Shown here: piece after piece, positions 23,149 through 60,895 of the stretch
Numbering within the stretch: the first letter of the stretch is position 1
How the letters are laid out: the number at the start of each line of letters is the position of its first letter
From: Capnocytophaga catalasegens
GTDB lineage: Bacteria > Bacteroidota > Bacteroidia > Flavobacteriales > Flavobacteriaceae
Length of the DNA: 64,000 bases
Assembly: GCF_026005215.1 (NCBI RefSeq)
Contig: NZ_BPMA01000044.1
Coordinates: forward strand, 1-64,000
Direction of reading: 5' to 3'
The notes under the pieces: model-generated
Database searches by the model: none
What the model was told of the DNA's origin: nothing
Seen by the model: only the letters and a program-made list of their open reading frames with translations
Program-made: the position numbers and the translations under genes

Positions 23149-23359
23149 GTCGTAACCCCCTACTGAGCGGGTTGTAACCCCCTACTGAACGGGTTGTAAC
23201 CCCCTACTGAGCGGGTTGTAACCCCCTACTGAACGGGTTGTAACCCCCTACTGAACGGGTTGTAACCCCTAATGAGCAGGTTGTAACCCCCTACTGAGCG
23301 GGTTGTAACCCCCTATTGAACGGGTTGCAACCCCCTAATAAGCAGATTGCAACCCCTTC
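23149..23359. repeat. Tandem repeat array A: 22-nt unit, about 9.6 copies
   Basis: Head-to-tail copies of a 22-nt unit begin with GGTTGTAACCCCCTACTGA and end RCG. Most positions are conserved. Variation is concentrated in the G/A of the last bases, and the copies nearest 23359 are more diverged. One copy is a base or so short (AACCCCTAATGAGCA). In most units the junction forms an inverted repeat, GGGTT-GT-AACCC. There are no spacers, so this is not a CRISPR. The array lies 14 nt past the stop codon of the 163-aa helical protein gene and 62 nt before the sprA start. It is much more GC-rich than its surroundings. Confidence 0.95.
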
Positions 23360-23373
23360 AAAAGAGATAAAAA

Positions 23374-23865
23374 CTATTCCGTAATGGGTTTATCGTCGCT
23401 TTTCTTGGTAGAACGACCCGTTGGGAATTGTGTTTTAAGGTCTGTATAAGCACTTTTTGCATTCGGAGCATTGGTCGCTGCTGCGGCTTTTAGCCCTTTA
23501 TAATACGCAATAGAGTTGTTATACAAGTCCGTCCCGATTAAAAGCAATGTGTCATCAACTCGTTGAGTAATTGCCTCTAAGCGTCTAAGTATAGGCAATA
23601 ACGCATGTCGAGTGTTGTAATCTTTGGCGTGTTCGGCAGTATTGATATGCTGTAACACCAACTGCGGATACTGCTCCATATACTGCTTTACACGGGTAAT
23701 CCAACCTTCGGTTCGGTTGCCTACACGTGCATATTCTGCTCGCTCACTCGGAGTTAAGTTGATAAATTTGTCTTTTAATAGTTCTTCTATCTGTGAGAGA
23801 AGATGATTGAGTTTGTCCAATTCTTCTTTGGAAAGCTCTAAACTAATTAGATTATCTGTTGCCAT
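23374..23865 (-). CDS. Small all-helical protein of unknown function next to array A
   Basis: This 163-aa soluble protein has no signal peptide or membrane segment. It is predicted to be almost entirely alpha-helical: an N-terminal heptad-like segment (SKEELDKLNHLLSQIEELL), then LTPSERAEYARVGNRTEGW, a middle helix around YPQLVLQHINTAE, and a Lys/Ser-rich tail. I recall similar Bacteroidota proteins with LTPEER and DKT motifs and no known function, but I could not search. The gene lies between ruvA and sprA on the same strand, with the 22-nt array immediately 3' of it. No promoter match was found. Confidence 0.8.
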   Translation of the reverse strand: MATDNLISLELSKEELDKLNHLLSQIEELLKDKFINLTPSERAEYARVGNRTEGWITRVKQYMEQYPQLVLQHINTAEHAKDYNTRHALLPILRRLEAITQRVDDTLLLIGTDLYNNSIAYYKGLKAAAATNAPNAKSAYTDLKTQFPTGRSTKKSDDKPITE

Positions 23866-23928
23866 TTTAATAAAATTTTAAAGTTAATATAATTTAATAG
23901 GTAATCTTTCAATAAAATAATAATGTAT

Positions 23929-24513
23929 CTATACTAATTTCAACGCTTGTTTTATAATATTTTCTACGGATAAAGGCTCTGATGCCTGTGTGATGATTTT
24001 CTGTACTACTTTTTCGGTTACCTTACGAGGGTAGCCCAATACTTCCAATGCAGCAATAGCTTCTTCTTTACCAGTATTATGCAGGGTTGAAGAGGTCTCT
24101 GTAAGCCCTTCTAATTTTATCATTTTCTCACGAAGGTCAAGAATAATGCGTTGAGCGGTTTTCGCTCCGATACCTTTTACGGATTGAATCGTTCCTACAT
24201 CTCCATTGATAATCGCCTGTTGTACCTGTGCTGGGCTAAGCGAAGAAAGCATAATGCGAGCCGTACTAGCGCCCACTCCCGAGACCGATAACAAAAGAGT
24301 GAAAATATCACGCTCTGCTTTGTCATAAAAGCCAAAAAGCGTGTGGGCATCTTCCTTTATTTGTAGATAAGTGTATAAGAAGATTTGCGCTGTTTCAGGT
24401 ATTTTTGAAAAGGTATAAAGAGAAATATTAACAAAATACCCCACCCCGTTACAATCAATAACCACGTAAGTAGGGGTTTTCTCCGTTAAGCGACCTTGCA
24501 AATGTGTAATCAT
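23929..24513 (-). CDS. ruvA: Holliday junction branch migration protein RuvA
   Basis: This 194-aa protein binds Holliday junctions and loads the RuvB motor during recombination repair. The N-terminal OB domain starts MITHLQGRLTEKTPTYVVID. The two helix-hairpin-helix motifs are visible (LLSVSGVGASTARIML and VKGIGAKTAQRIILDL). The C-terminal domain III that contacts RuvB is present (EAIAALEVLGYPRKV). The length is normal. It is the first gene of a minus-strand run with the helical protein and sprA. Confidence 0.96.
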   Translation of the reverse strand: MITHLQGRLTEKTPTYVVIDCNGVGYFVNISLYTFSKIPETAQIFLYTYLQIKEDAHTLFGFYDKAERDIFTLLLSVSGVGASTARIMLSSLSPAQVQQAIINGDVGTIQSVKGIGAKTAQRIILDLREKMIKLEGLTETSSTLHNTGKEEAIAALEVLGYPRKVTEKVVQKIITQASEPLSVENIIKQALKLV

Positions 24514-24603
24514 ACAACCAATAATATTTCGGGCGCAATATAATAAAATATTTTATTTCTATGTGTTAAAAGTTGTATATTATGATAAATTTTACGTTCT
24601 TTG

Positions 24604-24622
24604 CAATCGCAATCAACGATTG
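24604..24622. promoter_or_regulatory. Inverted repeat upstream of the LacI-type regulator
   Basis: CAATCG and CGATTG are separated by 7 nt. The site lies in the divergent region between ruvA and the LacI-family gene, about 90 nt before the latter. It could be an autoregulatory operator, but it lacks the usual central CG arrangement of LacI-family sites. Confidence 0.2.
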
Positions 24623-24711
24623 ATTAACAAAAATAAATACTATTAAGAAACATTGAATTCTTAAATTATTTAATCAAAAATACACTAAGATTTACAATAC
24701 AATACCAGATA

Positions 24712-25758
24712 ATGAGCCCTGTTACATTAAAAGATTTAGCAAGAAGACTGGGGGTTTCTGTAACCACCGTTTCTAAAGCCCTGAAAGACTATGCTGATAT
24801 TGGCAAAGAGACCAAAGAACAAGTCAAAAAATTGGCTCAAGAACTCAATTATCAACCCAATATTCACGCTGTAAATTTACGCGTACAGAAGTCCAAAACC
24901 TTCGGGGTTATCATTCCCAAAATAGAACATTATTTTTTTGCCAATGTACTCAATGGTATCATTAGCGAAGCAGAAAAAAACGGATATATTGTCATAACCC
25001 TCTTCTCCGATGATAATGTCGAACTAGAAAAACAACAAGTCAATCTACTCATTAACAAACGGGTAGATGGAATTTTTATGGTACTCTCTCACCAATCACA
25101 ATTGCACGAGCAATCACATATTATGAATATCTTAGCACATAATATCTCATTGGTGCTTTTAGATAGAACTTCAAGTGCTATACCTTGCTCTAAGGTACTT
25201 ATCGATGAGCAAAAAGCAGGGTATAAGGCAACCAAACACCTACTTAGCAATGGTGCTAAACATATTATGTATCTGGGTGGGTCAAAATGGCAACTCAATT
25301 ATCGCAAACGATTCAACGGATATATCCAAGCCTTGCACGAGTTTGGTATTATGGAAGATGAACGTATCGTACGTCATTGCCAAGCCAATAATATTAACGA
25401 AGCACAAGTCCAGACATTAGCCACCTTGAAAGAAAATCCACAGATAGATGCTATTTTCGCCTCAACCGATTTCTTAGCCTTTGGAGCAATAAAGGCAATC
25501 CATCAAATAGGTAAGTCTATACCCAAAGATATTTCTGTATTTGGTTTTAGTAATTGGTTTATGACCGAACACCTTGAACCAAGTATTTCGACCATACAAC
25601 AACCTAGTACTATTATGGGACACAAAGCCGTTGAACTGATGATTGACGAAATAGCCAACGAAGAAAAACGACTTCCTGTAAAACAACAGACTATTTTGCT
25701 CCCCACCGAACTGATTCTTAGACAATCAACAAAGAATGATATACATATCGATGGTTAG
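24712..25758 (+). CDS. LacI-family transcriptional regulator
   Basis: This is a 348-aa DNA-binding repressor. The N-terminal helix-turn-helix reads VTLKDLARRLGVSVTTVSKAL, followed by the hinge region NYQPNIHAVNLR. A periplasmic-binding-protein-like sensor domain fills the remainder (GVIIPKIEHYFFANVLNGI and DAIFASTDFLAFGAIKAI). It resembles sugar-responsive regulators, but no carbohydrate operon is adjacent, so its effector and targets are unknown. It is convergent with nadK, with only 10 nt between the stop codons. Confidence 0.92.
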   Translation: MSPVTLKDLARRLGVSVTTVSKALKDYADIGKETKEQVKKLAQELNYQPNIHAVNLRVQKSKTFGVIIPKIEHYFFANVLNGIISEAEKNGYIVITLFSDDNVELEKQQVNLLINKRVDGIFMVLSHQSQLHEQSHIMNILAHNISLVLLDRTSSAIPCSKVLIDEQKAGYKATKHLLSNGAKHIMYLGGSKWQLNYRKRFNGYIQALHEFGIMEDERIVRHCQANNINEAQVQTLATLKENPQIDAIFASTDFLAFGAIKAIHQIGKSIPKDISVFGFSNWFMTEHLEPSISTIQQPSTIMGHKAVELMIDEIANEEKRLPVKQQTILLPTELILRQSTKNDIHIDG

Positions 25759-25768
25759 TCTTACGTGT

Positions 25769-26650
25769 TTAGTTTCGTGTATCTTCGCCCCATAGTAGTT
25801 TTTTTCGGAGTGTTTTTAAGAAGTTTTGTCCTTCAAGTTCTATCATTTGCAAATTAAAGTTAGCCTTTTTTATCAAGATTTTTGTCTCACACGGAAGTGA
25901 TTTTAACCGAGAATCGAATGTAGTAAAATAGAATTGTTCCCTACTTGAAACACTTAACAATATTTCAACTCCATCAGGAATTACCAAAGGTCTAGCATTC
26001 AGATTATGTGGAGCTATGGGAGTAAGTACAAGACTTTCGGCATTAGGCATCATCACTGGTCCACCACAACTAAGCGAATACCCTGTGGAGCCTGTTGGAG
26101 TCGAAACAATAAGCCCATCTGCCCAGTAAGAGGTTAAGTATTCTCCATCAAGGAAGGTTTCAATTGTAATCATTGAAGTGGTATTCTTACGTGTAACGGT
26201 TATTTCGTTTAGGGCAAAATTCAAATCGGCTATGGGCTGATAGTCTTGTGTGAGTACTTGCAATACGGTTCTTTCTTGTATTTTATAGCGTTTCTGGCGA
26301 ATTTTTACAAACATTTCATCAATTTCTTCTTGTAGAACGGTTGCCAAAAAGCCCAATCTACCGGCGTTAATTCCCAATATAGGTATCGCAAGATGCTGAA
26401 TATACGTGATACCTCGCAAGATGGTTCCGTCTCCGCCGATGGTCAGCATTATATCGAAACTTGTATCTAAGTCTTGTATTGACGAAAAGGTACTAATGGG
26501 GTAGGCGAATGATTTTTTGGCAGAAAAATCAGACCATAATTGTTTTTCGATGTAAATTTGGTCTTGATTTTTTATCAAATTTTCAATAATAGTACTAAGT
26601 ACATTATCGTGTTCTACCTTGTGTTTCTGGCAATAAATAGCTACTTTCAT
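25769..26650 (-). CDS. nadK: NAD kinase
   Basis: This 293-aa enzyme phosphorylates NAD to NADP. The GGDGT motif that binds the phosphate donor is at about residues 72-76 (TIGGDGTILRG). The NE motif (LNEITV) and the glycine-rich TPTGSTGYSLSCGGP segment are intact. The frame is open up to 26704, but MKVAIYCQKH at 26650 is the natural N-terminus for the family. It is divergent from pdxJ. Confidence 0.95.
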   Translation of the reverse strand: MKVAIYCQKHKVEHDNVLSTIIENLIKNQDQIYIEKQLWSDFSAKKSFAYPISTFSSIQDLDTSFDIMLTIGGDGTILRGITYIQHLAIPILGINAGRLGFLATVLQEEIDEMFVKIRQKRYKIQERTVLQVLTQDYQPIADLNFALNEITVTRKNTTSMITIETFLDGEYLTSYWADGLIVSTPTGSTGYSLSCGGPVMMPNAESLVLTPIAPHNLNARPLVIPDGVEILLSVSSREQFYFTTFDSRLKSLPCETKILIKKANFNLQMIELEGQNFLKTLRKKLLWGEDTRN

Positions 26651-26689
26651 AGACAAATAATAATTTGGTTGCAAAATAATTAAAATATT

Positions 26690-26721
26690 TTGGAAAAAGC
26701 ACATTTTAGTTCGTATTTTTG
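26690..26721 (+). promoter_or_regulatory. Promoter of the pdxJ-hydrolase operon
   Basis: TTG (26690-26692), a 21-nt spacer and TATTTTTG (26714-26721) match the Bacteroidota consensus, 25 nt before the pdxJ ATG. Confidence 0.6.
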
Positions 26722-26746
26722 TACTTTAATTTTTAATTGAAACAAA

Positions 26747-27460
26747 ATGACAAAGTTAAGTGTTAATATTAACAAGATAGCAACGCTTCGGAATTCGCGA
26801 GGAGGCAATGTTCCCAATCTTTTGAAGGTTGCCGAAGATGTACAGCGATTTGGAGCGGAAGGTATTACGATTCATCCGCGTCCTGATCAGCGACATATAC
26901 GCTACCAAGATGCCTTGGATTTGTTGCAGGTAGTAACTACAGAGTACAATATTGAAGGTAATCCTGTGGGAAAATTTGTAGAGTTGGTGCTGAAAATCAA
27001 GCCAACACAGGTTACACTTGTACCAGATGCCGAAGATGCTATTACCTCCAATGCAGGCTGGGATACGATAAAGCATAAGCATTTTTTGACAGAAATAGTT
27101 AGCGAGTTCAAACGTAATGGGATACGTACTTCACTGTTTGTGGATCCCATAGAAGCAATGGTAGAAGGAGCTGCTCAAACAGGGACAGACCGCATAGAAC
27201 TCTATACGGAGAGCTATGCCACACAATACGAAAAGGGCAATCTCAAAGGAATTGAGTCCTATGTAAAAGCTGCTTTGGAAGCAGAGAAAGTAGGATTAGG
27301 TCTAAATGCAGGACACGATTTAAGCCTTGATAATCTGCAATACTTCAAGCAAAATATACCTAATTTGTTAGAAGTATCTATCGGACATGCGCTTATTTCG
27401 GAAGCATTGTATTTGGGTTTGCAGAATGTAATTAGTATGTATCTTTTCAGACTGAAATAA
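26747..27460 (+). CDS. pdxJ: Pyridoxine 5'-phosphate synthase
   Basis: This 237-aa TIM-barrel enzyme makes pyridoxine 5'-phosphate from 1-deoxyxylulose 5-phosphate and aminoacetone 3-phosphate. Signatures visible are LSVNINKIATLRNSRGG at the start, GITIHPRPDQRHIR, TLVPD, and the C-terminal GLGLNAGHDL and EVSIGHALISEAL. The family is well conserved and the length is normal. The alpha/beta hydrolase gene begins 2 nt after the stop codon, so the two are co-transcribed. Confidence 0.95.
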   Translation: MTKLSVNINKIATLRNSRGGNVPNLLKVAEDVQRFGAEGITIHPRPDQRHIRYQDALDLLQVVTTEYNIEGNPVGKFVELVLKIKPTQVTLVPDAEDAITSNAGWDTIKHKHFLTEIVSEFKRNGIRTSLFVDPIEAMVEGAAQTGTDRIELYTESYATQYEKGNLKGIESYVKAALEAEKVGLGLNAGHDLSLDNLQYFKQNIPNLLEVSIGHALISEALYLGLQNVISMYLFRLK

Positions 27461-27462
27461 TT

Positions 27463-28236
27463 ATGCAAATACTTCATTCACAAGTAGTAGGAGCGGGGAA
27501 GCCACTCTTTATCTTACACGGATTTTTGGGAATGGCAGATAACTGGCGTACGCTTGGGCTACGCTTTGCAGAGCAAGGTTTTGAAACGCATTTGATTGAT
27601 GCTCGCAATCACGGGCATAGTTTTCATGATGATGCCTTTTCGTACCAAGTGATGGTTGCCGATATTTTGCAATATGCAACAGCAAAAGGTATTTCTCGAT
27701 TTAGTATAATAGGGCATTCAATGGGTGGAAAAACAGCTATGTTGCTCGCAGTGCTTCACCCAGAACGAATTGACAAACTGATTGTTGCCGATATTTCTCC
27801 AAAAAACTATGCGGTACATCATCAGTTGATAATAGATGGCTTGGCTTCGATTGATTTTCAGCAAGTTTCTTCGCGCACCGAAGTAGATAAACAATTAGCT
27901 AAGTATATTTTGGATATGGGTACGCGTCAGTTTCTACTCAAAAGCCTTTATTGGAAAACAAAAGAGCAATTGGCTTTTCGTTTCAATCTTTCGGCATTGA
28001 AAAACAACTTACCCGAAATAGGAAAGGGACTGCCTGATGCGGCTATTTTCGAAGGGGAGACGCTTTTCTTGAAAGGTTCAAAATCTAATTATATAACCCA
28101 AGAGGATAGTGCGCTTATTTACAAGCATTTCCCGAAGGCAATAATTGAAGAGGTTTCAAATTCGGGACATTGGATTCACGCTGAAAATCCTACGGAGTTT
28201 ATGGATAAGGTACTTCAATTTTTAAATAAAAATTAA
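27463..28236 (+). CDS. Alpha/beta hydrolase (YbfF-like esterase)
   Basis: This 257-aa protein has the alpha/beta hydrolase fold. The oxyanion motif HGFLG starts at residue 19. The nucleophile elbow GHSMGG has S86, and the catalytic histidine is in NSGHWIHAENP near the C-terminus. Similarity to YbfF-type esterases suggests a cytoplasmic thio- or carboxyl esterase, but the substrate is unknown. It is tightly coupled to pdxJ. Confidence 0.88.
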   Translation: MQILHSQVVGAGKPLFILHGFLGMADNWRTLGLRFAEQGFETHLIDARNHGHSFHDDAFSYQVMVADILQYATAKGISRFSIIGHSMGGKTAMLLAVLHPERIDKLIVADISPKNYAVHHQLIIDGLASIDFQQVSSRTEVDKQLAKYILDMGTRQFLLKSLYWKTKEQLAFRFNLSALKNNLPEIGKGLPDAAIFEGETLFLKGSKSNYITQEDSALIYKHFPKAIIEEVSNSGHWIHAENPTEFMDKVLQFLNKN

Positions 28237-28257
28237 CTTTAATACTATATATATTGT

Positions 28258-28599
28258 ATGAAATATATTTTGAATTTACTGATTATTGGCTTGGTTGTGT
28301 TTGGGCTGAGCTTTGTTTTGAAGGGGGTGTATGTCGATGATTACTTATCGGCGGTGGTATTTGCATTTGTATTAAGTATCCTTAATGTTTTTTTGCGTCC
28401 TATCTTGGTGTTTTTATCTTTCCCGATAACAATTATCACACTGGGACTTTTTTTGTTAGTAATCAATACAATCTTAATTTTATTGGCAGATAAATTACTT
28501 GATGGTTTTGCTGTTTCGGGTTTTTGGTATGCCTTGTTGCTTAGCTTGTGTATTTCGGCGGTGCAATCGCTTATTGATGGGCGTGAAGAGGCTCGGTAA
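28258..28599 (+). CDS. Small four-helix membrane protein (phage-holin-4_2-like)
   Basis: This is a 113-aa hydrophobic protein with about four predicted transmembrane segments. The conserved NVFLRPILVFLSFPITIITLG segment is typical of the widespread YvlD/holin_4_2-like family, which has no proven function despite its phage-derived name. It starts 21 nt after the hydrolase stop and probably belongs to the same transcript. Nothing phage-like is nearby. Confidence 0.85.
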   Translation: MKYILNLLIIGLVVFGLSFVLKGVYVDDYLSAVVFAFVLSILNVFLRPILVFLSFPITIITLGLFLLVINTILILLADKLLDGFAVSGFWYALLLSLCISAVQSLIDGREEAR

Positions 28600-28754
28600 G
28601 TTTTTTAGCGATGCAAATCCTTTTGAGTGAAAGCTCCAATGCGTAAAAAAATAGAGGTAATTTTTATTTAAAAAGAATCATATCCGAAATTATTTATCAG
28701 TAAAATTGTAGCGGATTACTTGATAAAAATCTTTGAAAACAAAAAATCAGAATA

Positions 28755-30808: not shown

Positions 30809-30830
30809 TAATTGTATAATAAATATTTGT

Positions 30831-31045
30831 TTTGTTGTATAGCGAAATGGTTTTTCGTTGTGTTGGTTTTGTATTTGTTGTGTAGCGAAATGTATTTTTG
30901 TGTTAGTTATTTTTGTTTCGATGTTTTTATAAATATATATTTTTGTTGTTGATTTTGTGATTGATGTATAACGAATTGTGTTTTTAGTTGGTATATATGT
31001 GTTTCGCTGTTGTGCAGAAGTGATTTGTTATTTATTGTTTTGTGT
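30831..31045. repeat. Degenerate tandem repeat array C: 43-nt period, about 5 units
   Basis: Units start at 30831, 30874, 30917, 30960 and 31003. The first two share TTTGTTGT(A/G)TAGCGAAATG at exactly 43-nt spacing. The fourth has ATTGATGTATAACGAATTG at the same register, while the third and fifth are weaker. AGCGAAA occurs at 30841 and 30884, and its reverse complement TTTCGCT at 31002. The whole stretch is T/G-rich on the plus strand. It lies between the GT9 gene and the promoter of the DUF6261-like gene. Confidence 0.65.
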
Positions 31046-31199
31046 ATTGATATCTTTTTATATGAGTTTTTGAGTTAATTTTATTTATATTGATGTTTTT
31101 TTGTGTGAATTGTATGTTTTTGAAAATTATTTTTGGTTATGTTATATAGGGAGCTAAGTAAGGTATGAAAATATTTTTTGAAAAAAAATGAAATAAAAT

Positions 31200-31229
31200 T
31201 TGTATATTAAAAATAGTTTCGTATCTTTG
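31200..31229 (+). promoter_or_regulatory. Promoter of the first DUF6261-like gene
   Basis: TTG (31200-31202), a 19-nt spacer and TATCTTTG (31222-31229) match the consensus. The ATG follows 32 nt later. The promoter lies downstream of array C, so the array is upstream DNA and not a leader. Confidence 0.7.
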
Positions 31230-31261: not shown

Positions 31262-32029
31262 ATGAGCGTAGAAGTTATAAAAATTAAATCGGTATATTTG
31301 TCTCGGTTTAACAATGAGGAATATACAAAATTTCTTTCGGGAGTAATTGGTTTGCTTGAAAAAGCAACCTTAGAGAAATTGCATATTGAACAAGAATTAT
31401 TTGATTCGTTTAAAGAACATGTTTCGCTACTGACCGATGTGTCTCGTAGAAGTACAACAAGTCACGAAACTAAAGAGCTTAATGAATTGGATAAGAAACG
31501 TAACGAACTGATTGTGTATCTGATGTCGTTCTTTCGTATGGAGCGTAAAGTTCCTATCGAAGCACGTAAGAAGGCAGCAGGAGATTTGTATGAGGTAGCT
31601 AAGCCTTATCAGAAAATGCAACAGCTTCCCAATCGGCAAAAGACCCAAGCTATTGAAGGTTTTTTATTAGATATGGGGAAAGAAGCTAATGTTTCGTACT
31701 TGAAAACCTTGGGCTTAAGCTCAGTAGTATCGCAGTTAGAATCTGTTAATCGTAAGTATAGTGAGCTTACCGAAGGACGTGCCGAAAGCCAGATGGCAAA
31801 CAAGGTAGTCGGAGCTAATTCCGTTCGTAAAAAAACTGATAAGCAGTATGCTGATATTGTGATGTGGGCGTTTTCAATGAGTATTATTATGCCTTCTGAA
31901 GAAAGTAAAAAGTTTGTTATTATGCTAAATAAACTTATTGACGATACCTCTCATATTTACAAACAACGTATCGGTCTGCGCAACGCTTCGTCTTCACAAT
32001 CGGCAGAAATGAAGGAAATACTCTCATAA
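31262..32029 (+). CDS. DUF6261-like all-helical protein of unknown function (copy 1)
   Basis: This 255-aa soluble protein is predicted to be almost wholly alpha-helical, with no signal peptide or membrane segment. It opens with VEVIKIKSVYLSRFNNEEY, has a central LDKKRNELIVYLMSFFR segment, and ends with long amphipathic helices. The layout resembles the second copy at 60215: a start motif, an L/D-D-x-K-R-x-x-L-x-V-x-x-x segment after about 80 residues, then AA-LYE and an E-G-R region. I recall this as the DUF6261 family of Bacteroidota, which I could not verify. It has its own promoter and is preceded by the 43-nt repeats. Confidence 0.75.
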   Translation: MSVEVIKIKSVYLSRFNNEEYTKFLSGVIGLLEKATLEKLHIEQELFDSFKEHVSLLTDVSRRSTTSHETKELNELDKKRNELIVYLMSFFRMERKVPIEARKKAAGDLYEVAKPYQKMQQLPNRQKTQAIEGFLLDMGKEANVSYLKTLGLSSVVSQLESVNRKYSELTEGRAESQMANKVVGANSVRKKTDKQYADIVMWAFSMSIIMPSEESKKFVIMLNKLIDDTSHIYKQRIGLRNASSSQSAEMKEILS

Positions 32030-43134: not shown

Positions 43135-43455
43135 TTATCGTTTATCTGCTATTCCAAATTCTTTCCATCCAGCTTGAGGAATAGCTAACTTAACTACTTT
43201 CTTAGCTTCACTCATTTTAGCTTGAATTTTTTCAATTTTAGAATTGATAGCTTCTGTTTTAAGTTTCAAATCTGATTTTAGTTTTTCTTGTTCATTATTT
43301 AACCGAATAGCTTCTGCACTAAGCTGTTCTAATTCAGCAACAAAATCTGATTCTAATCCTCGTTTGGCTACTTCTGCTTGATTATTCTTTAATCCAGAAG
43401 TCATTAACTGTGTTTGTGAGATAAGTCCCGCAAAGGTTTTTCTATTTCTTGTCAT
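43135..43455 (-). CDS. Small coiled-coil protein of unknown function next to array D
   Basis: This is a 106-aa protein. The ATG at 43455 (MTRNRKTFAGLISQ) is preferred over an upstream in-frame TTG at 43482. Nearly the whole chain is helical with coiled-coil character (EQEKLKSDLKLKTEAINSK), and it ends in a conserved-looking motif, VKLAIPQAGWKEFGI. I recall comparable Bacteroidota proteins ending in a W-R/K-E-F-G-I motif, with no known function. It lacks a signal peptide. A terminator lies just downstream and array D lies upstream. Confidence 0.75.
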   Translation of the reverse strand: MTRNRKTFAGLISQTQLMTSGLKNNQAEVAKRGLESDFVAELEQLSAEAIRLNNEQEKLKSDLKLKTEAINSKIEKIQAKMSEAKKVVKLAIPQAGWKEFGIADKR

Positions 43456-45842: not shown

Positions 45843-46277
45843 ATTATTTATATTTAAAGTTATATTCATTTGTAAAACAATTCTGTTATAGAATTGTAGA
45901 TTTATTTAACTCGAATAATCTTTATATTGATATTAAAATAAGTGAAATTTTTTGTAGAATGCAAAACAAATGTACGAAAAAAAACTTGTATGTCCGTTTA
46001 GTGTAATAAATGATTTTTTTTGTAATAATTTATCAAAAATATGAAAATATAACTATTTGGTTTTCAGTTATATATTTTTACATTTGACTTATAAAATTTA
46101 GCAATTATATTCTTTTATTAGTAATAACGGAGATACATAAAAAAAAATGATATTTTATTACTTTATATCGAAAAAATAAAATAAAAAATTTTTTTAACCA
46201 ATTATTTATCCTAATCAGCTAATAATAGTAAATTGAAAAGAAGATACGGAATAGAAGGAAAATATAATGTATAAAAA
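45843..46277. other. AT-rich intergenic region with one promoter element
   Basis: On the minus strand a TACATTTG -7 box at 45974-45967 could drive the dehydrogenase. I see no gene, RNA or repeat array in the remainder. Confidence 0.4.
45967..45974 (-). promoter_or_regulatory. Promoter -7 box of the alcohol dehydrogenase gene
   Basis: On the minus strand this reads TACATTTG, about 125 nt upstream of the start. No -33 element is seen. Confidence 0.4.
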
Positions 46278-50244: not shown

Positions 50245-50252
50245 CAAAAATA
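50245..50252 (-). promoter_or_regulatory. Promoter -7 box of the TonB-type receptor with the 8-nt tract
   Basis: On the minus strand this reads TATTTTTG, 40 nt before the ATG. The usual -33 position falls inside the AAAAAAAT tract immediately upstream. Confidence 0.55.
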
Positions 50253-50283
50253 AAAAAATAAAAAAATAAAAAAATAAAAAAAT
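50252..50283. repeat. 8-nt tandem tract (AAAAAAAT, about 4.6 copies)
   Basis: T residues recur exactly every 8 nt at 50251, 50259, 50267, 50275 and 50283, separated by runs of seven A. The tract lies directly next to the -7 box of the receptor gene, in the position of the promoter spacer and -33 element. Confidence 0.95.
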
Positions 50284-50618
50284 ATGTTGCTTATAAGCTT
50301 ATATAGATTGAGTTTAAATAGTAATTTAGTTTATTTTGTTATTGCTTGAATGAAATTGGAAATTAAACGGATTTAAGTTTTTTATCATTTGTGAGATTAT
50401 TCTTTGAGTATAGTGCTGTCAAGTTGAACAAAATTGCGAAATTGAGTATGTACATCGAAGTCCTTTTTTAATATTATTTCTCAATTTTGCTCAAAATGAT
50501 AGGGAATTTTACTTTATTTAAAATAACAACTTTTGTTTTTAATGAAAAAGTTTAAACAAAATTATTAAAATTATTGAGAAATAAGTTACATTGAATAATA
50601 TTTTTGTACAGAAAGTAC
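50284..50618. other. AT-rich intergenic region without a recognised gene
   Basis: This lies between the divergent receptor and rpoN genes. I see no ORF, repeat array or RNA gene beyond the elements listed separately. Confidence 0.4.
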
Positions 50619-52127: not shown

Positions 52128-52134
52128 AAACGAA

Positions 52135-52875: not shown

Positions 52876-52890
52876 TTGGAAAATTTTTGG

Positions 52891-53509: not shown

Positions 53510-53525
53510 AGATTGTTAATCAATA

Positions 53526-53710
53526 TCAATTTTTATCAACGAATAAAAATGTAGCAATATCTTTGCCTTTGTGCCAAGAAGAAACGATAGTATCTTTAAG
53601 AATTATTTTGACATAATCAGTTTTTATTTTAGGAAAAGATATATCAATAAAAAATGTATTTTGTATAGGAAAGTTCTCTTTGACAGATTCTAATTTTGTA
53701 TTCTTGCAAA
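53526..53710 (-). pseudogene. Fragment of an unidentified protein (C-terminal part)
   Basis: A 64-codon open frame starts only at a TTG and encodes IDISFPKIKTDYVKIILKD and SSWHKGKDIATFLFVDKN. It reads like the end of a longer protein that has lost its start. It abuts the transposase remnant, so the upstream part may have been deleted by an insertion event. I cannot assign a family. Confidence 0.4.
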
Positions 53711-53803
53711 TTATCTCCAATGAGCTAAATATTCCTTACAATCTAAGTTGGTTTTGAAGTGCTCTGCAAACTCTAAGAGATTTTGACCTTTAAAAATTTT
53801 CAT
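53711..53803 (-). pseudogene. Remnant of an IS1595-type transposase N-terminus
   Basis: The first 30 codons encode MKIFKGQNLLEFAEHFK and DCKEYLAHW, then a stop. This resembles the start of IS1595-family transposases of Bacteroidota, whose next element is a zinc-ribbon. Sequence after the stop (ICKNTK in a shifted frame) hints at the zinc-ribbon's first cysteine. No ends or further transposase sequence are visible, so this is a relic. Confidence 0.5.
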
Positions 53804-53970
53804 AACAACTTGATTTTACATACTGCAAAGATGTGAATTTATATGATGAACTCAAAAATTTTTTATAAATCTTTCATACAGTGAACACATCTACCTGTGG
53901 CATCGCCTCCATTAGTAAATTTAGTATTTATTGTGGAATAATCAATTCGCATAGCCCTGTTGGGTAAAGC

Positions 53971-54120
53971 CGTGTACTTTTGCAAACAACAAAAAATATT
54001 TCTGAAATAGCCTTTGAAATAGGTTTTACTTCACAAAGGTATTTCAGTACTACGGTATTTAAATAAATTGTAGGAAAAACACCAAATGAATATCGGACAG
54101 AAAATGAAAAAAGAAGTTAA
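53971..54120 (+). pseudogene. Remnant of an AraC-type DNA-binding domain
   Basis: In one frame the sequence reads RVLLQTTKNISEIAFEIGF, then TSQRYFSTTVFK, a stop codon, and IVGKTPNEYR. This matches the second helix-turn-helix of AraC-family regulators, with a stop codon where a charged residue is expected. No coding sequence for an N-terminal domain is visible upstream. It is a decayed regulator fragment. Confidence 0.65.
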
Positions 54121-54240
54121 TTGTAAAACAAAAATCAGTTTTTTTTGAAAATAAAAAAAATTACCCAAAAATTCATTTCTGGCAAAGTTTTTGCTACTCA
54201 AATCATTCGTTTAGAAAATATTTTGTAAAACTAATTTTAG

Positions 54241-55449: not shown

Positions 55450-55472
55450 TAAAAAACTTTTTTATATTTTTG
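55442..55472 (+). promoter_or_regulatory. Promoter of the thioredoxin-like gene
   Basis: TTG (55442-55444), a 20-nt spacer and TATTTTTG (55465-55472) fit the consensus. It overlaps the end of the metallophosphoesterase gene and supports a start at 55500. Confidence 0.6.
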
Positions 55473-55499
55473 CAAAAGAAAATAAAAATAAAGAGTATT

Positions 55500-55805
55500 A
55501 TGCCTGTTTTTGGAGAAATAATCAATACAAAGATACCTGTTCTTATTACATTTTGTGCTGATTGGCATTATTTATCTGAACAAATAAATGTAATTTTGCG
55601 CGAGGTTTCTATCGTAATGGGTGATGATGCTAAAATTATCAAGATGGATGTTGATAAGAATAGAGAGCTTACTAAGGCATTTCAAATCAATGGATTACCT
55701 ACTTTTATTCTGTACTATCTTGGCGATGTTGTTTGGCGTGAAGAGGGGGTTGATTCGGCAGATATTCTGATTGAAAAAATCCAAAAATATACAAAAAAAG
55801 AATAA
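55500..55805 (+). CDS. Thioredoxin-fold protein lacking the CxxC active site
   Basis: This is a 101-aa protein. The ATG at 55500 (MPVFGEIIN) is preferred because the upstream in-frame start lies inside the promoter. The thioredoxin fold is recognisable from KIPVLITFCADW, KIIKMDVDKNREL and the cis-proline loop INGLPTFILY. The redox motif WCGPC is replaced by W22-H-Y-L-S26, so neither redox cysteine is present. The role cannot be catalytic dithiol exchange. It lies 27 nt upstream of an L,D-transpeptidase-like gene. A decayed duplicate lies at 56494. Confidence 0.85.
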   Translation: MPVFGEIINTKIPVLITFCADWHYLSEQINVILREVSIVMGDDAKIIKMDVDKNRELTKAFQINGLPTFILYYLGDVVWREEGVDSADILIEKIQKYTKKE

Positions 55806-55832
55806 TCAATATTCTGAAAATAGTAACTAGGT

Positions 55833-56462
55833 ATGAAAAAAATATTATTGCTGATATTGATACTATGTTTATCAAGTATAACTTGGGGTTTATTTTCAAA
55901 TAAGAAACAAAAAAAGATGGACAAGTCAGCAGAGGTTTTATACGATAGTTATATAAAAGAAGCTACTTCTTATTGTCAGAAGAAAAAACTTTGTACAGAT
56001 TTTTTTATTTTGATAGATTATTCAATACATTCAGGGAAAGAAAGACTTTTTATTTACAATTTCAATACGGAAAAATTTGTAAATAGTTACTTGGTAAGTC
56101 ATGGTTGTGGTACATCGCCCACAGCAGAAGATTTTTCGCGAGAAAAACCTGTTTTTAGTAATGAACCTAATAGTCATTGCTCTTCATTGGGAAAATATTT
56201 GTTATCCAAGCAAAAAGTCAAAAGTACAAATTTTGGGGAGAAATATCTTCTTTATGGGCAAGATTCTACTAATAACAATGCTTTAAGGCGAGATATTGTA
56301 CTTCATCCTTGGAGTATTATCCCTGATAAAGCTCCTTATCCTAAGGGAATACCTGAGAGTTGGGGGTGTCCTGCAGTTTCTTTGTCAGTATTCCAATTGC
56401 TTGATAAGCAAATACAAACTACCGATAAGAATGTATTACTTTGGGCTATTTACTTCAAATAA
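55833..56462 (+). CDS. Murein L,D-transpeptidase catalytic domain family protein
   Basis: This 209-aa protein has a signal-like N-terminus (about residues 1-20). The catalytic pair is visible as H158 (IVLHPW) and C179 (SWGCPAVS), the YkuD-like S-x-G-C-x-x-x-S pattern. The central part (HGCGTSPTAEDFSREKPVFSN) matches the family layout. It may cross-link or attach peptidoglycan in the periplasm. It probably shares a transcript with the thioredoxin-like gene. Confidence 0.85.
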   Translation: MKKILLLILILCLSSITWGLFSNKKQKKMDKSAEVLYDSYIKEATSYCQKKKLCTDFFILIDYSIHSGKERLFIYNFNTEKFVNSYLVSHGCGTSPTAEDFSREKPVFSNEPNSHCSSLGKYLLSKQKVKSTNFGEKYLLYGQDSTNNNALRRDIVLHPWSIIPDKAPYPKGIPESWGCPAVSLSVFQLLDKQIQTTDKNVLLWAIYFK

Positions 56463-56493
56463 TTGAAAAATATTACATAAAAATATAAGTAGT

Positions 56494-56723
56494 ATACCTG
56501 TTTTTAGAGAAATAATCAATGTAAGAAATCCTGTTTTAATTATATTTTATGTAGATTGGTATCAAAAGTATTGGTTCAGATGAACACTATTTTCTGCGAG
56601 GCTTCTATTATAGGGTGATGATACTAAGATTGTCAAAATAGATGTAGATGAAAATAGAGAACTTACTAAAGCGTTTCGAATCAATGGATTGCCTATATGT
56701 ATATTGTATTGCAAATACCAATA
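56494..56723 (+). pseudogene. Decayed duplicate of the thioredoxin-like gene
   Basis: The region aligns with the 55500-55805 gene over most of its length. The start ATG has become ATA, followed by VPVFREIINVRNPVLIIF, a stop and frameshift near 56580, then GDDTKIVKIDVDENRELTKAFRINGLP in a further frame. The sequence is lost after the cis-proline loop. The L,D-transpeptidase gene lies between the two copies. It is a tandem duplication that has degenerated. Confidence 0.8.
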
Positions 56724-56783
56724 ATTTTGTTAGAGAAATATAGAAGTATGCTTTATAAGTTATAATATGACTTAATTTTTTTG

Positions 56784-56816
56784 CGAAAAGACCTTTTTTA
56801 CGAAGGTCTTTTTTCG
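56784..56816 (+). terminator. Terminator after the duplicated region
   Basis: A stem, AAAGACCTT and AAGGTCTTT (within 56786-56812), has a short loop and a T-run. Confidence 0.8.
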
Positions 56817-56856
56817 TTTGTAATGGAATTTTATTTGTTAATTCTTTGAAAAAAAA

Positions 56857-56887
56857 TTGTTGTTTATCAAATAATATACTACTTTTG
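56857..56887 (+). promoter_or_regulatory. Promoter of the TPR protein gene
   Basis: TTG (56857-56859), a 20-nt spacer and TACTTTTG (56880-56887) match the consensus, 21 nt before the ATG. Confidence 0.6.
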
Positions 56888-56908
56888 GGCATTTAAAACC
56901 TATTTAAT

Positions 56909-59884
56909 ATGAAATTCAGACACATAGTACCGATTTTTTGCTTGGGAGTAGCAACAACTGCTTTTTCACAAGCTACAATGGAATACACACATTCGCAGGT
57001 TGCTTTTCAGAAAGCTTTATCGCTTTACAATCGTAAGCAATATAGGCCTGCACAGCACTTCTTTGAACAAGAAATGCAACAAACCACCGATGCCAATACC
57101 AAGGCAAATTGTAGCTATTTTGTAGCCTCATCAGCTATTCGTTTGGGGCAAAGTGGTGCTGATGCACTTATGGAGCAATTCTTGGCAGAATATCCTTCTT
57201 CGCCCTATGCAGGCAATGCGAGCCTTGATGTAGCGGACTATTATTTCACACAGGGGAACTACAAACAATCGGAAGAGTGGTATAATAAAGTTGATGCTCG
57301 CTTGGTAAGTCCCACCGAGAGAGATAAGTATAATTTCCAGAAGGGATACGCACTTTTCTCGCAAGGGAAAAAAGCGGAGGCGAAAAAGTATTTTACCTCA
57401 GTGAAAAACTCTAAAGAATATGGTCCAAAAGCAGCTTATTATTTGGGATATATGGCGTATGATGCTGATGATTATGCCCAAGCAAGCCAATATTTTGAAC
57501 AAGTACAAGATGATAAAGACTTGAACAAAAACTTATCATACTATCAAGCCGATATGAGTTTCAAACAAGGTAATTTTGAAAAAGCACTTAAAGAAGGATT
57601 GGTACAACTAAAAAAGAGCAATAGTGCAAAAGAAAAATCGGAGATAAACAAAATTGTAGGAGAGAGTTACTTTAACCTCAATCAATATGCCGAAGCCATA
57701 CCTTATCTGAAAGCCTATCAAGGTAAGCAAGGCAAATATAGCAATACGGATTATTATTATTTAGGATATGCATATTATAAACAAAATGATTATCAGAATG
57801 CTATAAATAACTTCAACAAAATTATTGATGGGAAGAATGCCGTAGCACAAAATGCGTATTATCACTTGGCAGAGTGTTACTTGAAAACCAATCAGAAGCA
57901 ACAGGCACTTAATGCGTTTCGCAATGCTTCGCAGATGGAGTTCAGCAAAGAAATAAAAAAAGATGCGATGCTCAATTATGCTCGATTGAGTTATGATATT
58001 GGTAACCCGTATGAGAGTGTACCAAGTGTGATACAAGCCTATATGCAAGCTTATCCCGACTCAAATACTACCGAAATGAAAGACCTTTTGGTCGATTCGT
58101 ATGTAACTTCGGGAGATTATAAATCGGCAATGGATTTGTTGGAGAAATCATCGGCTACTGCCGACAAGAAAGTCTATCAGCAGGTAGCTTTCTATCGTGG
58201 GTTAGAGTTGTACAATGAAGCACAATATACAGAAGCTCTTACCTACTTCAAAAAAGCACAAGGTACTTCTGATGAAAAAATCAATGCACGGGCAATATAT
58301 TGGGGAGCTGAATCTAATTATTTGCTACACAATTATGCACAGGCAGAGAGCGATTATAAAAAGTTTTTATCACTAAATCAAACGGCATTGTCTGAATACA
58401 AACAAGCTACTTACGGCTTGGCTTATACGTATTTCAATCAAAAGAAATATGACTTAGCAACAGATGCTTTCAAGAAATATTTAGATGCAAAACCTACCGA
58501 CAAAAACCGTATAGCCGATGCTTATATGCGATTAGGAGATAGCCACTTTGTACTTGGTAAATATTGGCCAGCGATGGAAGCCTATAACAAAGTGATTACA
58601 ACGCACGCTACAGATACTGATTATGCTACTTTTCAAAAAGCAATTAGCTATGGATTTGTTGATAGAGTACCCAAAAAGATTGAAGAATTAGAAAAATTTG
58701 TTAGAAATTATCCCAAATCGGCACTTCGTGAAGATGCACTATTTGAATTAGGGAATACGTACTTAGCACAAGGCAATACACAAAAAGCGGTTCAGGCGTA
58801 CAAACGAATTCAAAATGAGTATAAAAATAGTAGTTTTGTACCCCGAGCTATGCTCCGTGAGGCATTGGTATATTACAATCAGGGAGATAATCAGAAGGCA
58901 CTAACTATTTTCAAACAAATTACAGCACAATATCCTAATACAAGCGAGGCGGTACAAGCAGTTAATACTGCCAAAGCGGTGTATGTTGATATGGGCAAAG
59001 TCAATGAATATGCACAATGGGCAAAAGGATTGGGGTATGTAGAGGTTAGTAATTCCGAATTAGACAATGCTTCGTTTGAAGCAGCTGAACGCCACTATTT
59101 GCAACAGAAAAACAAAGAAGCTATTTCAAGTTTGGAGAAATATCTCAAAGATTTTCCACAAGGACTTAATACAACACAAGCACAATTCTATTTGGCACAA
59201 CTTTATTTTTCGGAAGGAAATAAAAACAAAGCCACTTCGTATTACGAAAAAGTAGTTAGCACTGGGCGTAATGAATATACAGAGCAGGCACTTACACGCC
59301 TTAGCCAGATGTATTTAGAAAAATCAGAAACCAAAAAAGCCGAACCGCTACTCAAAGAATTGGAAACTATCTCGACCATCGCGCAAAATATCGTATATGC
59401 ACAATCGAACCTGATGAAAATTTCTTACGAAAATAAAGATTATCAGCAAACGATAAACTATGCACAGAAGGTTTTAGCTGAAAAAAGTGTAGATAATCGT
59501 ATCAAAAATGATGCTCATACCATGATTGCTCGTGCGTATATAGCAACAGGCGATGAAGCCAATGCCGAGAAATACTATACCGAAGTACGCAAAACAGCCT
59601 CCGGATCACTTATGGCAGAGGCTATCTACTACGATGCTTACTTCAAAAATAAAGCAGGTCAGTATAAAAAATCGAATGAAATTATCCAAAAATTAGCCAA
59701 AGAATACGGCGGATATAAAGAATTTTCTGCAAAAGGACTCGTACTAATGGCTAAGAACTTCAATGGACTGAAAGATAACTATCAAGCTACTTATATTCTA
59801 AATAGTGTTATCGAAAACTTTGGTGACTATCCAGAAGTTATCAAAGAAGCCAAAGAGACACTTGCTAAGATAAAAGCAGAGTAG
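56909..59884 (+). CDS. Exported tetratricopeptide-repeat protein
   Basis: This is a 991-aa protein with a signal peptide (ending TTAFSQ) and more than a dozen TPR-like repeats. They are visible as repeated patterns such as AEAKKYFTSVKNSKEYGPKA and AEAIPYLKAYQGKQGKYSN. It probably acts in the periplasm as a scaffold. I recall that flavobacteria often encode such a TPR protein directly upstream of an outer membrane barrel protein like the one at 61007. Here the 43-nt array and a DUF6261-like gene lie between the two. Confidence 0.88.
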   Translation: MKFRHIVPIFCLGVATTAFSQATMEYTHSQVAFQKALSLYNRKQYRPAQHFFEQEMQQTTDANTKANCSYFVASSAIRLGQSGADALMEQFLAEYPSSPYAGNASLDVADYYFTQGNYKQSEEWYNKVDARLVSPTERDKYNFQKGYALFSQGKKAEAKKYFTSVKNSKEYGPKAAYYLGYMAYDADDYAQASQYFEQVQDDKDLNKNLSYYQADMSFKQGNFEKALKEGLVQLKKSNSAKEKSEINKIVGESYFNLNQYAEAIPYLKAYQGKQGKYSNTDYYYLGYAYYKQNDYQNAINNFNKIIDGKNAVAQNAYYHLAECYLKTNQKQQALNAFRNASQMEFSKEIKKDAMLNYARLSYDIGNPYESVPSVIQAYMQAYPDSNTTEMKDLLVDSYVTSGDYKSAMDLLEKSSATADKKVYQQVAFYRGLELYNEAQYTEALTYFKKAQGTSDEKINARAIYWGAESNYLLHNYAQAESDYKKFLSLNQTALSEYKQATYGLAYTYFNQKKYDLATDAFKKYLDAKPTDKNRIADAYMRLGDSHFVLGKYWPAMEAYNKVITTHATDTDYATFQKAISYGFVDRVPKKIEELEKFVRNYPKSALREDALFELGNTYLAQGNTQKAVQAYKRIQNEYKNSSFVPRAMLREALVYYNQGDNQKALTIFKQITAQYPNTSEAVQAVNTAKAVYVDMGKVNEYAQWAKGLGYVEVSNSELDNASFEAAERHYLQQKNKEAISSLEKYLKDFPQGLNTTQAQFYLAQLYFSEGNKNKATSYYEKVVSTGRNEYTEQALTRLSQMYLEKSETKKAEPLLKELETISTIAQNIVYAQSNLMKISYENKDYQQTINYAQKVLAEKSVDNRIKNDAHTMIARAYIATGDEANAEKYYTEVRKTASGSLMAEAIYYDAYFKNKAGQYKKSNEIIQKLAKEYGGYKEFSAKGLVLMAKNFNGLKDNYQATYILNSVIENFGDYPEVIKEAKETLAKIKAE

Positions 59885-60214
59885 AACGGGTTGTTTTTCA
59901 TTTTTATAGTATCAATTTTTTTTAAAAAAAAGAAAAATACCTTTTAGGTCGGGCAAAATAGCATAGTTAAGTAGGTAAAAAGTGTTGTTTCGGGGTCGGA
60001 ACAGTATAGGTGAGAGGGTAAAAAGTGTTGTTTCGGGGTCGGAACAGTATAGGTGAGAGGGTAAAAAGCCCTGTTTCGGGGTCGGAACAGCATAGTCAAG
60101 AGGGTAAAAAGTGCTGTTTCGGGGTCGGAACAATATAGTCAAGAGAGTAAAAAACCTTGTTCCGACCTCGGAACAACAAGAAATAGAATATTAATTTAAA
60201 AAAATTATAGTAAA
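59885..60214. other. Intergenic region that consists mostly of array B
   Basis: Apart from the 43-nt repeats (59973-60180), with a diverged partial copy to their left, I see no gene here. Open frames on the minus strand over the repeats are by-products of the repetition. No TAnnTTTG box is seen between the array and the following gene. Confidence 0.6.
59973..60180. repeat. Tandem repeat array B: 43-nt unit, five copies, each with a hairpin
   Basis: Units start at 59973, 60016, 60059, 60102 and 60145, exactly 43 nt apart, with a diverged partial copy to the left (from about 59946). The common part is GGTAAAAAGTGTTGTTTCGG followed by GGTCGGAACA. In each of the first four units TGTTTCG pairs with CGGAACA across a GGGT loop (7 bp, one G-T pair). 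In the last unit the stem is TTGTTCCGA with TCGGAACAA: the G-T pair has become C-G and the stem is kept. The array ends 34 nt before the second DUF6261-like gene. Confidence 0.92.
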
Positions 60215-60895
60215 ATGATACAAGTTTTTGATTTAAAAGAAATACGTTTAATGGAATTTTTCCAAGTGATGCAAAATGTAAAATCGTTTTTAGAACAACA
60301 CGATATGTCCAATTTGGGACTAACCGAAGCCAAAATAACATTTGACCAAAAGCTATTGGCTTTGGAACAAACCATCAAGCCGCTTCAAAAGAGTCCGCAC
60401 ACGCAGTCAATACAAGATTTAGATGCTAAGCGCGACGCTCTTTTGGTAGGATTTTTGGCGCATTGTCGTGCATTTACAACTTTTCCGGAACAAGAAAAAT
60501 CTAAAGCTGCACAAAAACTATTGGCAACTATTGAAAAATATGGGAAAAACATACACAACAAACCCCTGCAAGAAGAAACGGCTATTATTTATAATCTGCT
60601 GAAAGATTTTGAAGAAACCTCGCATCAGCAGGCTATAACCGCTATCGGTGCTGAAAAATGGATACAAGACCTAACCAAAGTCAATCAAGAGTTTGCCCAG
60701 CTACACAATACACGTACTCAAGAACAGGGTGAAATTGTAGTGGGGGCGACCAAACAGGCTCGTAAAGAACTCAACGAAGCTTTCAAGCATGTGGTCAAGA
60801 GCATCAACGCATTGGCATACATCAACGGAAAAGATAAGTATCAATCGTTAGCCAATTCGCTCAATGAAGAAATCAAACGAGCCAAAGCACACTAA
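60215..60895 (+). CDS. DUF6261-like all-helical protein of unknown function (copy 2)
   Basis: This is a 226-aa soluble protein predicted to be almost wholly alpha-helical. It opens MIQVFDLKEIRLMEFFQ, has DLDAKRDALLVGFLAHCRAF (comparable to the LDKKRNELIVYLMSFFR of copy 1), and FPEQEKSKAAQKLLATIEKYG. From memory this is the typical DUF6261 pattern, which is unverified. Array B lies immediately upstream. The gene is flanked by the TPR and outer-membrane barrel genes. Confidence 0.8.
   Translation: MIQVFDLKEIRLMEFFQVMQNVKSFLEQHDMSNLGLTEAKITFDQKLLALEQTIKPLQKSPHTQSIQDLDAKRDALLVGFLAHCRAFTTFPEQEKSKAAQKLLATIEKYGKNIHNKPLQEETAIIYNLLKDFEETSHQQAITAIGAEKWIQDLTKVNQEFAQLHNTRTQEQGEIVVGATKQARKELNEAFKHVVKSINALAYINGKDKYQSLANSLNEEIKRAKAH

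Follow-up and report, generated by a model that had tools for sequence, protein, structure and literature searches.

Within a 64,000-nucleotide stretch of the Capnocytophaga catalasegens genome (contig NZ_BPMA01000044.1, positions 1 to 64,000; hereafter the window, part of a 2.92-Mb assembly of 100 contigs), four loci (A to D) each place a gene for a small protein beside its own tandem repeat array. The pairing of such genes with arrays, the periods of which centre on multiples of 21 bp, is real and strongly non-random, and for the family of the 163-amino-acid (aa) protein of locus A it is phylum-wide. On the basis of sequence comparisons, we consider it probable that each locus is a self-contained cassette, the protein of which binds its own helically phased array as well as copies of that array that lie elsewhere in the genome without a gene.

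Four gene–array loci in the window

An earlier reading of the same DNA (the original prediction) had proposed four gene–array pairs, and all four are present. Tandem Repeats Finder reports arrays A, C and D; array B, which the program does not report as a 43-bp array, is recovered by autocorrelation.

23148..23356: array A, 22-bp unit GGTTGTAACCCCCTACTGAGCG in 9.5 copies, core dyad GGGTT-GT-AACCC (Tandem Repeats Finder)
23374..23865, minus strand: protein A, 163 aa, all-helical, from the family whose 21-bp arrays lie downstream of the gene
30820..31160 (about): array B, degenerate, 43 bp (autocorrelation lag 43, z = 7.5 against shuffles)
31222..31229, plus strand: TATCTTTG, a match to TAnnTTTG between array B and the DUF6261 gene
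31262..32029, plus strand: protein B, 255 aa, DUF6261 (Pfam PF19775, E 2.7e-38)
43135..43455, minus strand: protein C, 106 aa, coiled-coil-like, from a family of 7 in the genome
43562..43660: array C, 42-bp unit in 2.4 copies with a 21-bp sub-period, dyad ATCTCAATATTGAGAT (Tandem Repeats Finder)
59974..60175: array D, 43-bp unit in 4.7 copies, dyad core TGTTTCGGGGTCGGAACA (imperfect) / TGTTCCGACCTCGGAACA (Tandem Repeats Finder)
60215..60895, plus strand: protein D, 226 aa, DUF6261 (Pfam PF19775, E 4.8e-42)

Array A sits downstream of the 163-aa gene, 18 bp past its stop codon, and arrays B, C and D lie upstream of their genes, with array D ending 40 bp before the 226-aa gene. Protein C would be 115 aa long if a TTG codon is the start. 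Proteins B and D, described earlier as DUF6261-like, match PF19775 with bit scores of 131.8 and 143.9 (Pfam gathering cut-off, 27); Pfam assigns no function to this family. Neither A nor C has a Pfam match at E 0.001. The statement that no other window genes have such arrays holds at a Tandem Repeats Finder score of at least 80 and a period of at least 15, where the program reports no array besides A, C and D. One detail had been misplaced: the motif AGCGAAA, ascribed to the 43-kb array C, has no match there and instead occurs in both orientations in the 30.8-kb array B (30841 and 30884 on the plus strand, 31002 on the minus strand). The repeats run head to tail, and none of the arrays contains the unique spacers between repeats that are the hallmark of CRISPR (clustered regularly interspaced short palindromic repeats).

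Arrays accompany four protein families

The genome encodes 29 DUF6261 proteins (B, D and 27 more), 7 full copies of the 163-aa family together with an eighth, short remnant, 7 members of the 106-aa family and 6 members (one gene partial) of a fourth family, with proteins of about 226 aa, which was found because one seemingly gene-less array had such a gene 69 bp away. At a Tandem Repeats Finder score of at least 55, arrays with periods near 21, 42 or a multiple occur within about 400 bp upstream of 20 of the 29 DUF6261 genes (one of these calls, L023, is borderline), and 5 of the 7 genes of the 163-aa family have an array downstream. Lags of 21 or 42 are among the top upstream autocorrelation peaks for 6 of the 7 106-aa genes, once weakly, and the three fourth-family genes examined, of the six, all show upstream 21/63-bp periodicity. 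The unit sequences vary from locus to locus. What is fixed within a family is the period and, with few exceptions, the side: upstream for the DUF6261, 106-aa and fourth families, and downstream for the 163-aa family.

We compared DUF6261 genes with other genes by autocorrelation of the 550 bp upstream of 85 genes, comprising 27 of the 29 from this genome and 58 from elsewhere in the genus, out of the 59 that were left when 7 duplicates had been removed from 66 fetched loci (upstream sequences that were too short or rich in N were excluded). The top lag was 41–43 in 71 of the 85, and 57 of the 85 also had z > 4 against shuffles. Among 489 other genes sampled from the C. catalasegens genome, with family genes and their surroundings excluded and gene-less arrays kept, a top lag in this range was seen upstream of 48, and 8 of these also had z > 4. 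Downstream of DUF6261 genes the corresponding numbers were 18 of 88 segments and 1. Given 71 of 85 against 48 of 489 and 18 of 88, the association of DUF6261 genes with arrays is not due to chance.

Outside the genus, 41 or 42 was the first or second lag for four of five DUF6261 genes (L234, L235 weakly, L237 and L238) and not for L236. Clear arrays among the named records are a 41-bp array in Prevotella nigrescens and a 42-bp array at one Parabacteroides gene (z 12); a second Parabacteroides gene has weak periodicity (z 2.5). The annotated start codon of the P. nigrescens gene falls inside its 41-bp array, and in this species about 250 bp separate the annotated gene from the end of a second array farther upstream (L350:3012-3407, 120 bp × 3.3).

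For the 163-aa family we examined the best 80 of 183 relatives from a scan of GTDB genomes, a set in which species are not randomly represented. With Tandem Repeats Finder (score of at least 80), an array is seen within 400 bp downstream of 28 of these 80. Autocorrelation of the 350 bp downstream gives a top lag of 21, 42, 43, 63, 64, 65, 84 or 85 in all 78 usable loci, some of them weakly, with z > 4 in 74 of the 78 and in a single control segment taken farther away (73 such far segments entered the lag comparison). A survey of the phylum yielded matches to this family in 13 of 198 genomes. Periodicity of n × 21 bp with z > 4 follows the gene in 14 of the 20 survey loci examined; of the remainder, L255 has the periodicity upstream, L254/L266 have a common 24-copy array, and in four the array is weak, farther away or absent. 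In the fourth family, the top upstream lag within the genus was 21, 42, 63 or 41 in 25 of 27 genes, the two misses being shortened reading frames; this sample (30 of the 52 matches listed were examined, of which 27 had sufficient sequence upstream) contains many orthologues and its members are not independent.

Two further features of 163-aa loci concern their repeats and flanks. Near-identical genes of this family in Niabella hibiscisoli (L171 and L177) each have a 148-bp higher-order repeat (about 7 × 21 bp), and two C. catalasegens loci (L034 and L039) have in common a segment of about 100–117 bp in their flanks that is 92% identical.

The original prediction had inferred a recurring gene-plus-array cassette and proposed looking for arrays with periods of 20–23 or 40–46 bp near homologues, with random intergenic regions as the comparison. 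A version of this test, made against other genes, is strongly positive within the genome itself, within the genus and, where the 163-aa family is concerned, throughout Bacteroidota, and the enrichment at all three levels supports the inferred cassette. The outcome named in advance as contrary to the idea, arrays equally common beside unrelated genes, was not seen, although gene-less copies of arrays do occur. Pairing could also arise as a by-product, if slippage produced minisatellites beside poorly constrained genes and the protein never touched the array. Repeats and helical proteins are each common, and similar DUF6261 proteins can have dissimilar arrays; however, the enrichment over 489 other genes, a period that is fixed and a side that is mostly fixed per family over many genera, the dyad motif shared between loci (see below) and the near absence of such arrays from sampled genomes that lack DUF6261 and the fourth family make this the least probable of the alternatives that we considered.

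Gene-less copies and joint absence of gene and array

In 800 kb of the C. catalasegens genome, with arrays inside long reading frames (L280, L288 and L293) excluded, we found 12 non-coding arrays of this kind away from genes of the four families. Seven of the 12 match a single cassette each (z 19 to 173), with no other cassette above z 3.5. One of the seven, a copy of array A interrupted by a stretch of N (G000:C16:208.1-208.3 kb), was known beforehand, and the stretch that contains it was chosen for that reason. Over the whole genome, array D has two gene-less copies (C36:96-371 and C12:172132-172205). Another array, at L276, has 10.7 copies that match the array of cassette L039 and lies beside the remnant of a 163-aa gene, which corresponds to the C terminus. 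Most gene-less arrays are upstream of some gene; L125 lies between two convergent genes.

Such arrays appear to go with the presence of the families. In C. catalasegens, 15 of 18 non-coding arrays in the 800 kb have n × 21-bp periods, as do both of those in 160 kb of a second rich genome. Four genomes of the same genus without DUF6261 and the fourth family have one such array among six non-coding arrays in 640 kb. The C. catalasegens stretches are not random: they were taken from contigs already known to bear cassettes, two of the stretches were chosen to cover known loci, and the 800 kb contain five family genes; the control stretches are one contig per genome, and the 163-aa and 106-aa families were searched for within those stretches, where none was found. 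One control genome (G001) contains a repeat of another kind, a 366-bp unit in about 19 copies over 7 kb (L379:12985-20000).

At two window loci, gene and array are jointly absent from relatives. At the site of locus D, all 19 other genomes of the genus have neither a match to D nor an array in the interval between a tetratricopeptide repeat gene and the 578-aa gene that follows it; this interval is short in 18 of the 19 and about 0.8 kb in G007. None of these 19 genomes has a match to protein A within 1.5 kb beyond ruvA. In 13 of them sprA is found within 1.5 kb of ruvA, and in 7 of these 13 it begins about 8 to 40 bp after ruvA. By eye, we recognized no clear ends, terminal inverted repeats or target duplications of the type seen in mobile elements at the A insertion, the flanks of which are too diverged. 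DUF6261 is itself patchy, occurring in 14 of 20 genomes of the genus in 1 to 29 copies and lacking in the other 6.

These patterns recall REPtrons (TnpAREP/RAYT), in which a gene also sits beside private palindromic repeats that have further copies elsewhere in the genome. The cassettes could be selfish elements of that kind, with the protein spreading its repeat family and the repeats as the mobile substrate. Consistent with this, palindrome-rich repeats private to one gene have cognate copies elsewhere (7 of the 12 gene-less arrays, and the two copies of D), gene and array are jointly absent in relatives, presence is patchy and a gene remnant persists beside the array at L276. The likeness is incomplete, however. 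The REPtron protein belongs to the HUH superfamily, repetitive extragenic palindromes (REPs) are mostly distributed genome-wide and a given tnpAREP is mostly single copy (PMC8266576), whereas cassette proteins are all-helical, their repeats form head-to-tail, helically phased tandem arrays and their genes are multicopy. Pfam gave no HUH or Y1 transposase-like match for A–D, none of the 25 families listed for 65 proteins of the 163-aa family is of this type, and neither end sequences nor target duplications were recognized at the A site. We regard mobility of this type as unlikely, albeit the least unlikely of the alternatives weighed here.

Dyads in the arrays and their possible recognition

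Array units are rich in dyads. The 163-aa arrays contain 458 dyads against 212 in shuffles, most commonly spaced by 10, 32, 42 and 21 bp, compared with 256 against 237 in far segments. Upstream of DUF6261 genes there are 808 against 606 in shuffles, with 42 and 82 bp as the commonest spacings. One specific dyad recurs: over 73 loci, the 163-aa arrays contain 306 instances of GGTT-N3..5-AACC (one mismatch or none), as opposed to 26 in far segments and 24 in shuffles. It is spaced by 21, 22, 42, 63 and 64 bp and reaches three or more copies in 41 of the 73 loci. Array A combines these half-sites with a two-nucleotide gap (GGTT-GT-AACC). Within the 163-aa family, the more alike two proteins are, the more alike are their arrays, also between loci with unrelated flanks (partial r 0.435, 0 of 500 permutations).

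Arrays as DNA, RNA or coding repeats

A period of 21 nt is also seven codons, and we considered whether the arrays encode heptad repeats. We rejected this for most arrays because periods of 41, 43, 64 and 85 break the frame and stop codons intervene; a frame is open over 300 nt in only 4 of 28. A separate 42-bp repeat in the same genome (L280:9929-10157) lies within a 1,235-aa open reading frame and is probably coding, unlike the cassette arrays.

In type III toxin–antitoxin systems, a tandem array adjoining a small protein gene is transcribed to give the antitoxin RNA; the toxin there is a nuclease with a different fold. The cassettes share that layout, and their arrays might likewise be transcribed into repeated hairpins that bind the protein. 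The units are dyad-rich, and the upstream position of the DUF6261, 106-aa and fourth-family arrays is also that of type III antitoxin arrays. Mismatches within the dyads of 163-aa arrays favour G·T over A·C (100 to 60, compared with 33 to 25 in shuffles). In DUF6261 arrays, however, this bias is reversed (G·T 96, A·C 126; shuffles 81 and 81). Terminator-like hairpins, moreover, follow the stop codon within 130 nt at 58 of 79 loci of the 163-aa family (median distance from stop to T-run, 41.5 nt); shuffled sequences gave 3, and the adjoining 130 nt gave 12 of 78. The motif TAnnTTTG, which we take to be the −7 promoter element of Bacteroidota, peaks 31–50 bp upstream of DUF6261 start codons, between array and start, although only 27 of 85 genes have it within 20–80 bp. 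Many cassette arrays thus appear to lie outside the transcript, the periods in four families are multiples of two turns of B-DNA, no match to the ToxN, TenpN or CptN families was found among A–D in Pfam, NCBIfam or PADLOC, and the window has no Rfam match at the gathering score. The original prediction had left open whether the target was DNA or RNA; the terminators, the promoter motif and the lack of a consistent RNA-type mismatch bias suggest that this choice can be narrowed towards DNA, and we judge an RNA array to be quite improbable.

A DNA array could also be an ordinary operator, with the protein regulating its own gene and the genes beside gene-less arrays. DUF6261 arrays tend to sit upstream of the promoter motif, and most gene-less arrays are upstream of some gene, a placement to be expected wherever neighbouring genes have the same orientation. 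Against an operator role, 163-aa arrays usually lie beyond the terminator of their gene, L125 is placed between convergent genes and the neighbours of 163-aa genes are not conserved. We consider this role unlikely, and slightly more so than a mobile repeat family.

A candidate model for the cassette

The pairing, its helical phase, the dyads, the frequent position outside the transcript, the joint absence at two sites and the matches of gene-less arrays to single cassettes were all computed, and we infer from them the following arrangement. Each locus would comprise one small all-helical protein and a private tandem array of DNA sites, with dyad-rich units that repeat every 21 bp (163-aa, 106-aa and fourth families) or mainly every 41–43 bp (DUF6261). 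As 21 bp is two turns of B-DNA, successive sites would lie on the same face of the helix, two or four turns apart. Most likely, the protein would bind the array of its own cassette in the form of dimers lined up along that face, and by also binding the gene-less copies in trans could form a nucleoprotein cluster private to each cassette. Gene and array would be gained or lost as a unit.

Protein models fit a helical architecture. The AlphaFold2 model of the 163-aa protein A is all-helical with one helix of 55 residues (mean predicted local distance difference test score, pLDDT, 85), and that of protein D, built from two sequences alone, is a helical bundle (mean pLDDT 79.6).

Several observations weigh against this model. 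No known DNA-binding domain was found by Pfam in the proteins scanned, no structure in the PDB matched at E ≤ 0.001 in Foldseek, so that a known fold is unsupported, and the 163-aa family is acidic (median isoelectric point 5.4, 65 proteins). Five of the 12 gene-less arrays match none of 46 cassettes (z up to 2.5), a result unchanged after three fourth-family arrays were added. Not every gene has an array: 28 of the 85 DUF6261 loci, some of them arrayless, miss the combined threshold of lag 41–43 and z > 4, and two Tannerella loci, among the four weak members of the 163-aa sample, seem arrayless. The link between protein and array similarity is weak in DUF6261 (partial r 0.117, 1 of 500 permutations), and closely similar proteins that each have an array can differ in array sequence (L058/L007, 77% identical; L076/L015, 67%), so that specificity in this family would have to change fast, or period may outweigh sequence. 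Finally, the promoter motif has no peak at 163-aa genes (6 of 76) and in the window stands between array and gene at B only, with no such match at D, and no terminator is visible in the 18 bp between gene A and its array; arrays A and D may therefore be transcribed, as the RNA alternative would have it. Four further TAnnTTTG matches (30893-31128) lie within or beside array B, which is AT-rich.

Relationships and distribution of the proteins

We found no solved relatives of these proteins in the PDB (best E 0.014). Common ancestry of the families was considered and not accepted, with hhalign probabilities of 0.2 (163-aa and DUF6261), 11 (106-aa and 163-aa) and 22 (106-aa and DUF6261). The 106-aa profile had matches in 7 of 198 genomes counted in the phylum search; five of the matches are presumably DivIVA, judging by eye, and one (G089) is a fourth-family protein, which leaves the C. 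catalasegens genome as the only one of those counted with the 106-aa family. Searches of PHROGs, Rfam and defence-system models returned nothing usable.

A phage origin was rejected: viral contigs contained no relatives of D or the 163-aa family, and phage records none of the 163-aa family (the 106-aa family was included in neither search, and B, D and the fourth family were not searched for in phage records). A plasmid origin was also rejected. Plasmid records had no match to 163-aa or fourth-family queries (the 106-aa family was not searched for there) and yielded DUF6261 on only three large replicons of 170–568 kb, one with era and der nearby. Beside 163-aa genes no neighbour, whatever its type, is conserved; the largest group of related neighbours numbers five.

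Possible roles and known systems

On plasmid R388, the StbA protein acts on stbDRs, which form two sets, each of five 9-bp repeats with 2 bp between them (PMC3098194). Like the cassettes, this system has phased direct repeats beside a gene, in that case for a DNA-binding protein, and StbA, by binding stbDRs, stabilizes the plasmid without needing the motor-like StbB (PMC3098194). A cassette protein might similarly act on its array as a tether without a motor, anchoring the locus to the nucleoid or pairing arrays. This idea, in which binding is a prediction, agrees with the helical phase of the direct repeats next to the gene, with private specificity and with the sites elsewhere. No motor NTPase accompanies 163-aa genes as a conserved neighbour. 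StbA and stbDRs, however, are plasmid-borne, whereas the cassettes are chromosomal, in contexts such as ruvA–sprA, and number dozens per genome; the plasmid searches described above gave DUF6261 alone, and 6 of the 20 same-genus genomes do without DUF6261. No sequence relation to StbA was found, a comparison not specifically made beyond Pfam. A tether seems improbable, less likely than an operator and more likely than an RNA array.

In our view, an accessory element resembling REPtrons is the most likely role, with a regulator or a tether as serious rivals. If binding holds, we would tentatively picture the cassette as accessory or selfish, maintaining itself by means of its repeat family and with effects on neighbouring genes that are only local, rather than serving an essential chromosome function, by analogy with what REPtrons may do. 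A broader and more doubtful extension is a satellite-like address system, in which four families without detectable sequence relation would each read private arrays with sites two or four helical turns apart, with up to about 50 pairs per genome, and the proteins would cluster arrays and their copies. Such a system would parallel satellite DNA and its binding proteins, and the higher-order repeats (63, 84, 126, 148 and 210 bp) could be evolving as in eukaryotic satellites.

Our literature search, made largely without subscription papers and without bioRxiv preprints, found no description of these cassettes, nor, with a name search included, any link between an array and DUF6261. Were the binding model correct, a class of Bacteroidota minisatellites would have an explanation, and there would be a first point of entry to several protein families of no known function. 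The model would also provide dozens of naturally separate protein–DNA recognition pairs that lack a known DNA-binding domain, and with them a natural experiment in the diversification of specificity and a bacterial model for satellite DNA and its reader proteins.

Intergenic minisatellites of comparable period are known from the same phylum. Porphyromonas gingivalis has tandem repeats of 23 nt (BrickBuilt), 41 nt (464/PgRS) and 22 nt, the first two of which have been described as resembling miniature inverted-repeat transposable elements (MITEs) (PMC4596501). They are described as MITEs or repeats, and the available portion of that report names no protein partner (PMC4596501).

Other repeats were also noticed in the window. 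An element of about 230 bp at 45964-46189 is probably MITE-like; similar copies occur at L046, L119, L124 and L130, with 72–90% identity to a stretch upstream of the L041 gene. The minus strand carries an 801-aa open reading frame, upstream of which lies a perfect AAAAATAA microsatellite of 4.9 copies (50246-50284).

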